Shown piece by piece: positions 5,708 to 16,821 of a DNA stretch of 64,000 bases. The notes under the pieces were generated by a model. That model had not been told where the DNA came from, searched no databases, and saw only the letters and a program-made list of their open reading frames with translations. Source of the stretch: Thermoplasmata archaeon (lineage in GTDB: Archaea; Thermoplasmatota; Thermoplasmata; Thermoplasmatales; Thermoplasmataceae). The translations under genes were made by a program, and so were the position numbers. Position 1 is the first letter of the stretch; each line of letters starts with the position of its first letter. The DNA is taken from NCBI GenBank assembly GCA_021835025.1, contig JAKBQY010000014.1:1-64000 (forward strand). The letters are read 5' to 3'.

Positions 5708-6313
5708 ATGGCAACGAAAGATGAGATCCTAGAGTGGTTTAAAAATACCAATGAAAATGCGCAAAAATTAATAGATTTAAAATGGCAAATAGTGCAAACA
5801 GGCAATTATACAATTCTTCAAAATGATAAAATACCTTTTTCAATGTTTATTGGGTTCAATGACGACAATATTATGAATATACTCATAAGAACGGGTATAG
5901 AAACAGCAACAATAGACAATGAGGAAAGACTGACAATTTACAGGGTTTTACTTATATTAAACAAAAGAGTTGAAATTGTGAAATTTATGCTTGATGGCAT
6001 TAATGAGGAGGTAATTGCAGGTGCAGATATGGAAATCCACTCAATTACGCGTGATGATTTAAATTCCGTATTGAATGCAATATTAACATCGTTCTACATG
6101 ATGGTCCAGGCTCTGCATCTTGAAGACCAGTTCAATCAACAGATCATCGAAAGAACATTTTTAATGATTAAAAATATGGCACAGGAAGGAAAGTCCAGAG
6201 AAGATATCAAAAATTACCTGGTAAAAACAATAGGTCTCAGAGATGAAGAAGCGGAGAAATTGATCAGTGAAGTTCTGGACTCAGGCAATGCTCCGGCTAC
6301 CATGTATCAGTAA
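5708..6313 (+). CDS. Conserved hypothetical protein (201 aa)
   Basis: Full ORF with TATA-like upstream sequence; C-terminal UBA/EF-Ts-like segment KTIGLRDEEAEKLISEVLDSG. Confidence 0.65.
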   Translation: MATKDEILEWFKNTNENAQKLIDLKWQIVQTGNYTILQNDKIPFSMFIGFNDDNIMNILIRTGIETATIDNEERLTIYRVLLILNKRVEIVKFMLDGINEEVIAGADMEIHSITRDDLNSVLNAILTSFYMMVQALHLEDQFNQQIIERTFLMIKNMAQEGKSREDIKNYLVKTIGLRDEEAEKLISEVLDSGNAPATMYQ

Positions 6314-6332
6314 AAAAAATTTAACGATTAAC

Positions 6333-6695
6333 ATGAGCCCTCAATTTTTATATTACACTTCCACTGGAACGGGCAATGGTGCCCTGGCCGTACTTATAAT
6401 AGGCTTTATACTGATTCTGCTTATAATTTTCATCGTTATATATTATACCATAAAAATTATTACATCACAGACAGGTAAAAAATTTACAGGAGCCGAGTCC
6501 ATTATTAATAAAATTGGAATTGCAAGGACAGCAATTGAAGCAAATAGCAAAGGAACTGTTACCCTGGATGGGATATCATGGGAAGCCGTAAATCTTGGAG
6601 CAGAAAAAATAGAAAAATCTGATAATATTATTGTAATGGGAAGGAAAGGCGTGTCACTTCAGGTAAAAAAATTTAATAAAAAAATTTTAAGATGA
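6333..6695 (+). CDS. Small membrane protein with NfeD-like C-terminal domain
   Basis: ATG at 6333 preferred to ORF-track start; one TM helix then GIARTAIEANSKGTVTLDGISWEAVNLGAEKIEKSDNIIVMGRKGVSLQVKK. Confidence 0.6.
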   Translation: MSPQFLYYTSTGTGNGALAVLIIGFILILLIIFIVIYYTIKIITSQTGKKFTGAESIINKIGIARTAIEANSKGTVTLDGISWEAVNLGAEKIEKSDNIIVMGRKGVSLQVKKFNKKILR

Positions 6696-6712: not shown

Positions 6713-7042
6713 TTATCCTTTCCATATTCCAATTCCCAGACCTATTAAAAATAATACAAGTATAATAGACAGGGAACCAATTTTGCCTATTGGTAAAATG
6801 GATGGTAATTTATCTATATTTGCGAATATAAATGACTTTACATGTGACAATATTGCAGAAAATGATAATTTGGGCAAAAATGCAAATCCTGCATAGCCTG
6901 CAATAAAAATGGCAATAATTAGCAAAACAAAGGATGAAATACCTTTTTTAATTGCTAATCCAAAGAACAATCCATCAATAAACGCAAGAATCAAAATTAT
7001 ATAACCTTCAACAGCTACCATAAAAAGACAGGAGATAGTCAT
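6713..7042 (-). CDS. Predicted polytopic membrane protein
   Basis: 109 aa with several hydrophobic segments; no family recognised. Confidence 0.5.
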   Translation of the reverse strand: MTISCLFMVAVEGYIILILAFIDGLFFGLAIKKGISSFVLLIIAIFIAGYAGFAFLPKLSFSAILSHVKSFIFANIDKLPSILPIGKIGSLSIILVLFLIGLGIGIWKG

Positions 7043-7396: not shown

Positions 7397-8008
7397 ATGA
7401 TATTTTATTTTATTCGGCATGGACAGACTGTGGATAATGCCAGAGCAGTCTTTCCAGATGAAAATACAAAATTAACAGATAAGGGAATAAAAGAAGCCAA
7501 GACTGCAAGTAAATTTTTTGGCAATATTAAATTTGATGCGATTTATACCAGCCCCTTTTTGAGAACTCTTGAAACGGCCAAAATTTTGACAGAAAAGAGG
7601 TATATAATTGATAAAAGGCTTAAAGATGTTGATACTGGAACATTAAAAGGTGAAAGTATTGAAGAAATCTCAAAAAAAGATAAAAACTGGTATACAACAT
7701 TTCGAGATGATATAGAAAATAAATACAACGTTGAAAGATTTAGTTCGGTTAAGGAAAGAATTAACGATTTTATAAATGAAACAGGGAAAAATAACTATAG
7801 CAGAGTTCTTGTGGTAACACATCTTGAACCAATTAGGGCTATGTTTTCTATTTCTATGGATATCGATGGAAAAGCGCTTGTAAATATAGAAATAAACAAT
7901 TGTTCCGTATCATTGTTCACGTATTTTGGCAGTAAACTATATTTGAAATCCCTTAACTGGATTCCTCTTGATATGTACGATAATAATAAAAATAGGAGTT
8001 TTTATTGA
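7397..8008 (+). CDS. Histidine phosphatase (phosphoglycerate mutase-like) family protein
   Basis: FIRHGQTVDN RHG motif, FDAIYTSPFLRTLETAKIL, VVTHLEPIRA. Confidence 0.88.
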   Translation: MIFYFIRHGQTVDNARAVFPDENTKLTDKGIKEAKTASKFFGNIKFDAIYTSPFLRTLETAKILTEKRYIIDKRLKDVDTGTLKGESIEEISKKDKNWYTTFRDDIENKYNVERFSSVKERINDFINETGKNNYSRVLVVTHLEPIRAMFSISMDIDGKALVNIEINNCSVSLFTYFGSKLYLKSLNWIPLDMYDNNKNRSFY

Positions 8009-8010
8009 TA

Positions 8011-8250
8011 TGTGACCTCCTCCCACGAATGAATTCATGGGCTTCCTGTTTCGACGGTTACCGGTGGAGTCTCCACAGGCCTGAATTCCCCTCGGCCCTT
8101 GGGTACTTTGCCCTCCATGCTAAGCCATTCGACTTTACTGGCACAGGCATGCATAGTGCTATATGTGATCCGACCTTCTTCCATTATGTCTACCAGTGGA
8201 CAGGAATAATATTCTTCTGTGATATAAAAGGACCCCGTAATCTTTCCCAC
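8011..8250 (-). pseudogene. C-terminal remnant of an IS200/IS605 TnpB-like protein plus element end
   Basis: Minus-strand 71 aa ending RGEFRPVETPPVTVETGSP, followed by imperfect hairpin CCCATGAATTCATTCGTGGG and GAGGAGGTCAC terminus; family call from memory of related archaeal elements. Confidence 0.58.
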
Positions 8251-8429
8251 TCTCGTGTTTTCTTGTTGCCAATGCCATAACTGATAATTAAGTAATGCAT
8301 CATATATCCTTATACAATATGGAATTTACTATGTCTCTAAGCAAAAAATAGATTGGGATTCCAACATTCTATGACTGCCAGGGCAATAATAAATAAATTT
8401 ATATAATTCTGAATTATTGTTGGGTTAAT

Positions 8430-8843
8430 ATGAGTTTGATAGTTATAGGTGTACTACATAAATATAATTCAGAAATAAAAAGTAAGGAATCTTCAGATAA
8501 TTATATAAATGTAACCAAGAAAATTTTGCAAATGTATAAAATTAAAAGCGGATGCCTCATTAATGGCAGGATAGATGAAATTAATTCGGCAGTTGATAGG
8601 GATAAACAAATAGAGGTGGCCATGCCAAATCTTGAAAGTATAAGTGGAATGCATGTTGATATGATATACGTTGAAGGAGAAGGAGAAAAGGATTACCTGT
8701 TTTTTCAGAATAAAGATTGGAACAAACTTGTCAACTTTGCCATTTTCCCGGAGGAATATGAAATTAAATTTGAATTTAGTACAATTTCCTGTGGCTTCAG
8801 AAAAATTAAATTATTCAATAAAGGTATAGTTATAGATAAATAA
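8430..8843 (+). CDS. Hypothetical protein (137 aa) immediately upstream of Vps4-like ATPase
   Basis: Intact ORF, 14-bp gap to the next gene on the same strand. Confidence 0.65.
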   Translation: MSLIVIGVLHKYNSEIKSKESSDNYINVTKKILQMYKIKSGCLINGRIDEINSAVDRDKQIEVAMPNLESISGMHVDMIYVEGEGEKDYLFFQNKDWNKLVNFAIFPEEYEIKFEFSTISCGFRKIKLFNKGIVIDK

Positions 8844-8857
8844 TTTCAGGTGTTCAA

Positions 8858-9958
8858 ATGAAGGATGATGCAACAAATATATCAAAAATTACAAAATTAT
8901 TGAAAGAAGCGATAAATTATGAAACTCAGGGGAAAAAAGAAGAAGCAATAGAATCATATAAAAATGCACATAAATATTTATTAGAAATTGCCAAAAATTC
9001 AAAGGGAGAAGAAAGGAAAAAAAGGTTATCCCAGGCTGAAAATGTATTAAAGGCGTATAATTCATTAAAAAATGTGGACATCAATGAGGATAAAATAAAC
9101 AATGGAAAAAAAATATTGCAATCATTAAATATTGAAACTCCAGAAATACCAAACATTACCTTCAATGATGTTGCAGGTCTTGAAGATGTAAAGAATGAAA
9201 TAATGTCAAAAATCATATATCCTATGCGATATAAAGAATTATCGGAGGAATATGACATAGAATTTGGGGGAGGAATGCTTTTATTTGGTCCTCCAGGAAC
9301 TGGAAAGACATTTATCGTAAAGGCAATAGCAAATGAGGTAAAGGCGAATTTTATTAACGTTAACCCCTCGTCCCTGTATAGCCAATGGTTTGGGCAATTT
9401 GAAAAAAATATTTCTCTCTTATTTAAGGCAGCTTATCTATTATCACCCGCAATAATATTCTTTGATGAGATTGACACCCTTGTTCCAAAAAGGAGCGGAA
9501 ATGAGTCAGATGCGGCAAAAAGAGGCGTATCGCAGTTATTAACGGAAGTTGGAGGATTAACCTCGGAAAAGGATAAAAATATATTCATTATAGCAGCCAC
9601 AAATAATCCATGGGCCATAGATGAAGCAATATTGCGACCCGGAAGATTTGATGTTAAAATATATGTGCCACCACCTGATTATGAAGCCAGGAAAAAGTTG
9701 TTTGAATTAAAATTAGCCAAAATTAAACCCGTGGGAAATATTGATTATGGTCATCTTGCGGAAATTACTGAAAAATATTCTGGTGCAGATATAGAATTTA
9801 TATGTAAAAAGGCAATTCAAAATGTGTTCATGGAAGTTGTAAAAACGGGAAATAAGATTCCGGTAAACAGTGAAGATTTAATGTCTGTTATTTATCAAAT
9901 TAAACCATCAATAGATGAAAATATGCTTAATAGATATAAAATGTATACGGATGCTTAA
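8858..9958 (+). CDS. Vps4/CdvC-like AAA ATPase with N-terminal MIT-like domain
   Basis: MIT-like helices LLKEAINYETQGKKEEAIESYKNAHKYLLEIAK; Walker A GPPGTGKT; Walker B IIFFDEID; ATNNPWAIDEAILRPGRFD; Vps4-type C-terminus KPSIDENMLNRYKMYTDA. Confidence 0.86.
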   Translation: MKDDATNISKITKLLKEAINYETQGKKEEAIESYKNAHKYLLEIAKNSKGEERKKRLSQAENVLKAYNSLKNVDINEDKINNGKKILQSLNIETPEIPNITFNDVAGLEDVKNEIMSKIIYPMRYKELSEEYDIEFGGGMLLFGPPGTGKTFIVKAIANEVKANFINVNPSSLYSQWFGQFEKNISLLFKAAYLLSPAIIFFDEIDTLVPKRSGNESDAAKRGVSQLLTEVGGLTSEKDKNIFIIAATNNPWAIDEAILRPGRFDVKIYVPPPDYEARKKLFELKLAKIKPVGNIDYGHLAEITEKYSGADIEFICKKAIQNVFMEVVKTGNKIPVNSEDLMSVIYQIKPSIDENMLNRYKMYTDA

Positions 9959-10222
9959 GATAATATGCAAAGCGAACCTTCTATCTTTCTTTAGAATTGG
10001 GATTTCCCACTCAATTGCGATTAAATTATTTTTCACCAGTACCTTGATTTTCTACATATATGCTTGTATCCACTATACCTGCATTTAACATATAAAATGA
10101 ATATGTTTATAAATTCTTAACTTCATGATATCCTGAGAAGAAATTATCTAAAATTTTTACAGGGAATGCCCCTGCCATCGAAAATATAGAAAAGTTTATT
10201 TAAAGGATTATATTTATTACAT

Positions 10223-10825
10223 ATGGCAGTCTTCAAATTCGGCAAAAGTGAGGAAGAAAAGATTCTTGAGAAAAGATCAAGAATCAGCATTAATAAATCA
10301 AACATCGATAGAACAGTGAGGCAATATGAAAAATTCAAAGCAAAAAGCATGGAAGACGCAAAAATAGCATTGAAAGATAACAATATGAGAAAAGCAAAAC
10401 TATTTGCCTCTTTTATACAGTCGCTTGAATCGTCAATCACTGGTTTGAAAGATTATAGACTATTGTTAGAGAGCGTTGATTTGAACCTCCAATATTCAAA
10501 AACTCAGAAAGATATATGGTCATCATTAAAACAGAGTTCCCAGGATCTTGTGGGTGGACAATTGTCTCCACAACAAATAATGGAAATATCACAAAGTATA
10601 GATTCAATAGTTCAATCTCAGGAGAGAATACAGGAATCCCTTGGCGATCAACTTGACCAGATAAAAAATGCAGTAGATCAGAGCTCTGAAATAAATCCGG
10701 AAGCACGTGATAAGGTCCTTGAGGATTTAATGAAGGAAACCGAAAAGAAAGAACCTGAAAAGGTATCAGAGGAGGATGAAAAATTAAATCAGCTACTGAA
10801 GGATATGGAGAAGGAAAAAGAGTAA
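10223..10825 (+). CDS. ESCRT-III/Snf7-like (CdvB-like) coiled-coil protein
   Basis: 200 aa, basic N-terminal helices (IDRTVRQYEKFKAKSMEDAKIALKDNNMRKAKLFASFIQSLESS), acidic C-terminus, IMEISQSIDSIVQSQERIQESLGD resembling CHMP1 helix 4-5 region; near vps4. Confidence 0.62.
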   Translation: MAVFKFGKSEEEKILEKRSRISINKSNIDRTVRQYEKFKAKSMEDAKIALKDNNMRKAKLFASFIQSLESSITGLKDYRLLLESVDLNLQYSKTQKDIWSSLKQSSQDLVGGQLSPQQIMEISQSIDSIVQSQERIQESLGDQLDQIKNAVDQSSEINPEARDKVLEDLMKETEKKEPEKVSEEDEKLNQLLKDMEKEKE

Positions 10826-16452: not shown

Positions 16453-16821
16453 ATGCCAATGGTTATTGAATCAGAAATTAAATATGAAAAATTTCTTAAA
16501 CCCTTTAATAAAAAGGCCTCAGGACTTCATGCCAGGATAAGATCACGTTTATTTTCAGGAAAATATAATATCACATCTGAAATTGAAATAAATGCCAAAA
16601 TACTTGAAATAAAGGGTTTGATGGAGTATCTAAATACAGAAGACCTCAAAGACTTTTCAGGCATGGAAACCAAAATGTATGTTCTTCCTGCGGGATGCGG
16701 CCCTGATGATGGAATATTTTTTTCCAAAGATATGGCAGGGAAAATGGATAAACATTCCATTGCTCCGGGGAAATACAATGTAAAAATAGGAATATATGAA
16801 ATCAACGGCAACAAAATATAG
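16453..16821 (+). CDS. Hypothetical protein (122 aa)
   Basis: Intact ORF; no family recognised. Confidence 0.5.
   Translation: MPMVIESEIKYEKFLKPFNKKASGLHARIRSRLFSGKYNITSEIEINAKILEIKGLMEYLNTEDLKDFSGMETKMYVLPAGCGPDDGIFFSKDMAGKMDKHSIAPGKYNVKIGIYEINGNKI

Follow-up and report, generated by a model that had tools for sequence, protein, structure and literature searches.

The 64,000-nucleotide stretch of DNA that we have analyzed (hereafter the window) carries a minimal ESCRT locus of the Thermoplasmata type belonging to an Acidiplasma species, in which Vps4 would probably drive constriction of the membrane, the small beta-barrel protein bb1 would act as adaptor, the membrane protein M as anchor, and cell division would be the job performed (Table 1). 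The trio itself, third gene included, is already published: Makarova et al. (2024, mBio, PMC10936438), in their main text, describe a minimal Thermoplasmata ESCRT made of Vps4, ESCRT-III, and the beta-barrel arCOG07400, name Acidiplasma among its holders, and suggest a role in division. What goes beyond that main text is M, a bb1 paralogue (bb2), and the larger ESCRT clusters of sister genera. The locus bears on how wall-less, FtsZ-less acidophiles divide.

Table 1. Features of the ESCRT locus and associated genes in the window.
Feature	Position	Strand	Remarks
M, 102-aa protein with three hydrophobic segments	6713..7021	-	ESCRT-linked across the family
Putative TATA-like box before bb1	8398..8405	+	Consensus match in AT-rich DNA
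bb1, 137-aa beta-barrel protein	8430..8843	+	First gene of the bb1-vps4 pair
Vps4/CdvC-type AAA ATPase, 366 aa	8858..9958	+	Profile and structure-family matches
MIT domain of the ATPase (residues 12-71)	8891..9070	+	PF04212
Putative TATA-like box before snf7	10195..10202	+	Consensus match in AT-rich DNA
ESCRT-III (Snf7/CdvB-type) protein, 200 aa	10223..10825	+	Snf7 profile, predicted model
MIM1-like C-terminal motif DEKLNQLLKDM (residues 185-195 of ESCRT-III)	10775..10807	+	Predicted MIT binding
bb2, 122-aa bb1 paralogue	16453..16821	+	Only in the FtsZ-less clade

Components of the Locus

The three same-strand ORFs given in the preliminary description are present, with the 14-bp gap that it reported between the 137-aa gene and the ATPase gene and a wider one (264 bp) between vps4 and snf7. 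TATA-like boxes, of a kind common in AT-rich DNA, are located 24 bp before bb1 and 20 bp before snf7, and the genes likely form two transcription units, bb1-vps4 and snf7. The DNA before bb1 also includes a stretch of higher G+C content (7990-8280). It contains a short palindrome and, on the minus strand, an ORF of 71 aa, gave no Pfam or PHROG match, and resembles the eroded end of an insertion element.

The 200-aa protein, initially assigned to ESCRT-III by the layout of its helices, exceeds the Snf7 cut-off (PF03357, 33.4 bits against 27.3) and is the sole match of that profile in the genome. Its predicted model has five helices (pLDDT 74), and the nearest solved folds are the CdvB and CdvB2 filaments of S. 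islandicus, followed by CHMP2A/CHMP3; Foldseek gave probabilities of 0.89-1.00 for all of these (0.98-1.00 for CHMP2A/CHMP3) but E-values of about 0.01 or weaker, and BAR domains appear among the matches as well, as expected for long helices. The last helix follows the pattern [DE]xx[LIV]xx[LI][LI]xx[LIM] in 15/15 closer homologues, while in more diverged ones this motif is variable. It resembles MIM1, whose consensus includes an arginine that is missing here, and is a predicted MIT-interacting helix; the conservation in relatives strengthens the previous proposal of this acidic helix as a candidate MIM.

In Ferroplasma acidarmanus (locus L135, 5394-6086) the ESCRT-III protein is extremely diverged, with 19 bits to the family profile and a degraded C-terminal motif, and the Vps4 and bb1 encoded beside it remain well conserved. 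Genome searches had found no ESCRT-III in three genomes of this genus (g10), and its absence from Ferroplasma was considered; the idea was rejected after local HMM scans of the loci of two of these genomes detected, next to vps4 in each, a copy that has diverged greatly.

The ATPase has a single AAA domain (PF00004, 138 bits), in which GPPGTGKT, FFDEID, and RPGRF (Walker A, Walker B, and arginine finger) are kept, and the MIT-like N-terminus noticed before scores just above the cut-off of PF04212 (30.7 bits against 30). Of the Vps4-like C-terminus, the Vps4_C profile alone gives weak support (14.5 bits, cut-off 21.3), but this region aligns with that of the solved CdvC/Vps4 structure 4lcb, against which the family profile runs end to end (positions 9-369, E 3e-79). 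The likeness to CdvC that had been proposed holds as kinship and fails as equivalence, given that the score against the NCBIfam equivalog NF041006 is under its threshold (232 bits, cut-off 650): the enzyme is related to crenarchaeal CdvC but is no equivalog of it.

The 137-aa protein bb1, for which no resemblance had been recognized, has indeed no family match in Pfam, NCBIfam, or PDB, and yet it is conserved beside vps4. A profile search found it in 17 of the 61 genomes of the family, distributed among six genera. Acidiplasma aeolicum, Ferroplasma acidarmanus, a Thermoplasma, and Thermogymnomonas are among the named relatives. In the mapped loci of the six genera it is located directly upstream of vps4, a neighborhood far beyond chance. 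The AlphaFold2 model is a confident beta-barrel (pLDDT 85.7) with no significant Foldseek match (no E under 0.001). By position and fold, bb1 is very likely the arCOG07400 component, so the expectation that the third gene would be a new component does not stand, this barrel having been published as the third gene (main text of PMC10936438). The earlier reading of the locus as a pared-down ESCRT machine of a wall-less acidophile, complete with a small third protein, is nevertheless borne out by the data.

A cradle-loop barrel was also considered, since the model shows a beta-beta-alpha-beta unit twice over and the protein contains the half-repeats YINVTKK and YLFFQNK. As a duplicated AbrB or VAT-N-type barrel, however, bb1 found no backing in profile comparisons of its two halves (probability 0.6%) or with six VAT N-domains (0.1%), nor in the Foldseek search, and we restrict the claim to a beta-barrel.

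bb2 and the FtsZ-Less Clade

FtsZ (PF00091), which had been marked for checking from the start, and SepF (PF04472) gave no match in the three Acidiplasma genomes, and both were also undetected in 5/5 genomes of g10 and 2/2 genomes of g19, probably Picrophilus, which is devoid of ESCRT too. The remaining 51 genomes of the family contain FtsZ, and in Thermoplasma and Cuniculiplasma-like genomes ESCRT is found together with FtsZ and SepF.

The bb1 profile matches a second protein in the window, bb2 (E 1.1e-7; comparison of the two families, E 1.2e-10). bb2 is present in nine of the ten FtsZ-less genomes, G001 being the exception, and no genome among the 51 that have FtsZ contains it; the other matches of the search that gave these counts are bb1. 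A VAT tree groups the FtsZ-less genomes in a single clade (100/100), so the pattern amounts to a single coincidence of gain and loss; the idea of a repeated co-occurrence was rejected, and the gain of bb2 with the loss of FtsZ is suggestive only. The restriction of bb2 to this clade yields a few testable candidates for a role in division. From this distribution, the arCOG07400 member described in Picrophilus would seem to be bb2, not the bb1 that is linked to ESCRT; the split between the two is not mentioned in the main text of PMC10936438. In the window, bb2 follows lysine/ornithine-type biosynthesis genes; in A. aeolicum it occupies another locus, and in the close relative G001 it is missing.

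Larger ESCRT Clusters in Sister Genera

In sister genera the ESCRT clusters are bigger and include additional copies of Vps4 as well as genes for DO-GTPases. In g3 and g13 there is a six-gene operon (G067, L143, 2291-6873) encoding M, a coiled-coil protein (195 aa), a Vps4-like ATPase (398 aa), a helical protein (212 aa), an ESCRT-III-like protein (Snf7 19.3 bits, under the cut-off), and a second Vps4-like ATPase (389 aa). It constitutes a second ESCRT system besides the usual Vps4 and ESCRT-III. The same operon was seen at L142, L108, L110, and L139.

The main ESCRT genes of g3, g13, g15, g17, and g18 lie among genes for a DO-GTPase, which is a membrane protein (PF19993, 35.7 bits, cut-off 27), and for a weakly GAP1-N-like protein, joined in four of these five genera by a HEAT-repeat protein gene. 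At L143 (9923-19158), ESCRT-III and Vps4 flank or adjoin the DO-GTPase, GAP1-N-like, and HEAT-repeat genes and one for a 622-aa protein; L109, L111, L112, L113, L139, L140, and L141 have the same neighborhood. This link of ESCRT to DO-GTPase/GAP1 genes was found neither in the main text of PMC10936438 nor in the paper defining the DO-GTPase/GAP1 systems (PMC7159879), which makes no mention of Vps4. These clusters indicate that the family also has ESCRT systems beyond the minimal kind, and that of the window appears to be one arrangement among several.

Proposed Function

With the homology, the motifs, and the conserved neighborhood established, and FtsZ and SepF undetected, we infer the following interactions and roles. 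ESCRT-III would assemble into polymers on the cytoplasmic side of the cell membrane, which they would constrict. The Vps4 hexamer, through its MIT domain, is predicted to grip the MIM1-like C-terminal helix and would extract subunits from the filament, thereby driving constriction and recycling. bb1, made together with Vps4, would most likely be a soluble adaptor linking Vps4 or the filament to its site or cargo. Division is the most likely job because Acidiplasma has neither FtsZ nor SepF. What counts against such a machine is the badly degraded state of ESCRT-III and its motif in Ferroplasma acidarmanus.

The same machine might instead serve mainly in vesicle budding or membrane repair, Acidiplasma dividing by something else, for example actin and bb2. 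The coexistence of the trio with FtsZ and SepF in Thermoplasma, and of ESCRT with both in Cuniculiplasma-like genomes, means that division is not the sole possible use of ESCRT, and g19, which divides without either system, must have some other means of doing so. Sulfolobales ESCRT makes vesicles (cited in the main text of PMC10936438), and the company of DO-GTPase and HEAT-repeat genes in sister genera is a context that fits sorting or stress better than division. Against this, the system, reduced to its core parts, persists in those Acidiplasma and Ferroplasma genomes that were searched and lack FtsZ, and no other non-actin constriction machine was found there. We regard budding or repair as a serious though somewhat less than probable main role, and retain division as the preferred reading.

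M, a Linked Membrane Protein

The ORF of M opens at 7042, and the conserved start is that given in Table 1. The protein has invariant DG..FG....KK and KG-terminal motifs and no known domain; an affiliation to CvpA/Colicin V was discarded, as only one of 11 members matched PF02674, without significance (E 0.58). Homologues are nearly confined to the family, with one weaker match elsewhere among 200 genomes of the class. In 19 of the 27 ESCRT-bearing genomes, and in 8 of the 11 genera, a homologue is encoded no more than 5 kb from an ESCRT gene, for which a crude genus-level binomial that ignores kinship between genera gives about 5e-9. M is unreported beside ESCRT genes as far as the main text of PMC10936438 goes, which names no such gene for the clade. 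In the window, M lies next to a pair of genes (5708-6695) for a 201-aa protein with no known family and, after it, a short NfeD-domain membrane protein; the pair is shared with G001 and was not seen beside M in A. aeolicum.

By analogy with CdvA or SepF elsewhere, M is likely a membrane anchor or landing platform for the ESCRT system, and it could supply a piece that the minimal ESCRT lacks, the choice of the membrane site. M could also be an ordinary membrane protein that stays near ESCRT through inherited gene order and not through function. Its lack of a known domain would agree with this, as would the homologues unlinked to ESCRT (g9, g10, and g18) and those in genomes without ESCRT, which count against the anchor role. 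However, position and strand differ between genera while the closeness persists: M is found upstream of bb1, flanked by a vps4 gene on either side in G016, downstream of snf7 but in opposite orientation in G025, or at the head of the six-gene operon with two Vps4-like ATPases (G014, G030, G067, G073, and G077). Furthermore, the M tree has three separate branches, each ESCRT-linked. Inherited gene order is thus an unlikely explanation, and we prefer a functional link as anchor.

A broader proposal, possible although rather doubtful as a whole, would have M recruit ESCRT-III and Vps4 throughout the Thermoplasmatales, standing in for CdvA or SepF, and bb2, arisen as a duplicate of the Vps4-linked barrel on the branch that lost FtsZ and SepF, belong to a novel apparatus by which Acidiplasma, Ferroplasma, and Picrophilus divide independently of FtsZ.

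Comparison with Known Systems

That no ESCRT is involved, the ATPase being an unfoldase of the Cdc48/proteasome type and the helical protein a coiled coil of another kind, is already largely refuted and deserves almost no credence: the AAA domain scores top against Cdc48/VCP D2, the Vps4_C and CdvC equivalog cut-offs were missed, and the helical model has modest Foldseek E-values and BAR matches, but the MIT domain is above its cut-off in a protein with one AAA domain that matches CdvC from end to end, the conserved partner passes Snf7 and has CdvB as nearest fold, and the genome has its own two-domain VAT/Cdc48 on contig C34.

Read as ESCRT, the window trio fits the published minimal Thermoplasmata set, with Vps4, ESCRT-III, and a small beta-barrel in one locus and FtsZ absent, the equivalence of bb1 and arCOG07400 being drawn from position and fold; besides M and the bb1/bb2 split, a difference lies in the sister genera, whose clusters are larger than the "minimal" of the main text of PMC10936438.

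With the crenarchaeal Cdv system (CdvA, CdvB, and CdvC) the locus shares an ESCRT-III protein and a MIT-AAA ATPase, CdvB and CdvC being the nearest solved structures. In contrast, what stands before vps4 in the window is not CdvA (a PRC barrel plus coiled coil) but a barrel protein with no coiled coil and no PRC match; neither PRC nor CdvA matches appeared among the neighboring proteins scanned. The tails differ as well, since CdvB carries a proline-rich MIM2 and that of the window ESCRT-III is MIM1-like. Compared with the eukaryotic and Asgard ESCRT-III/Vps4 systems, the window locus is devoid of ESCRT-0/I/II partners and of a ubiquitin link, and its motif (DxxLxxLLxxM) departs from MIM1 at the consensus arginine, whereas the helical ESCRT-III core and the MIT-AAA ATPase are common to all of them and the putative C-terminal MIM would be a further shared part.
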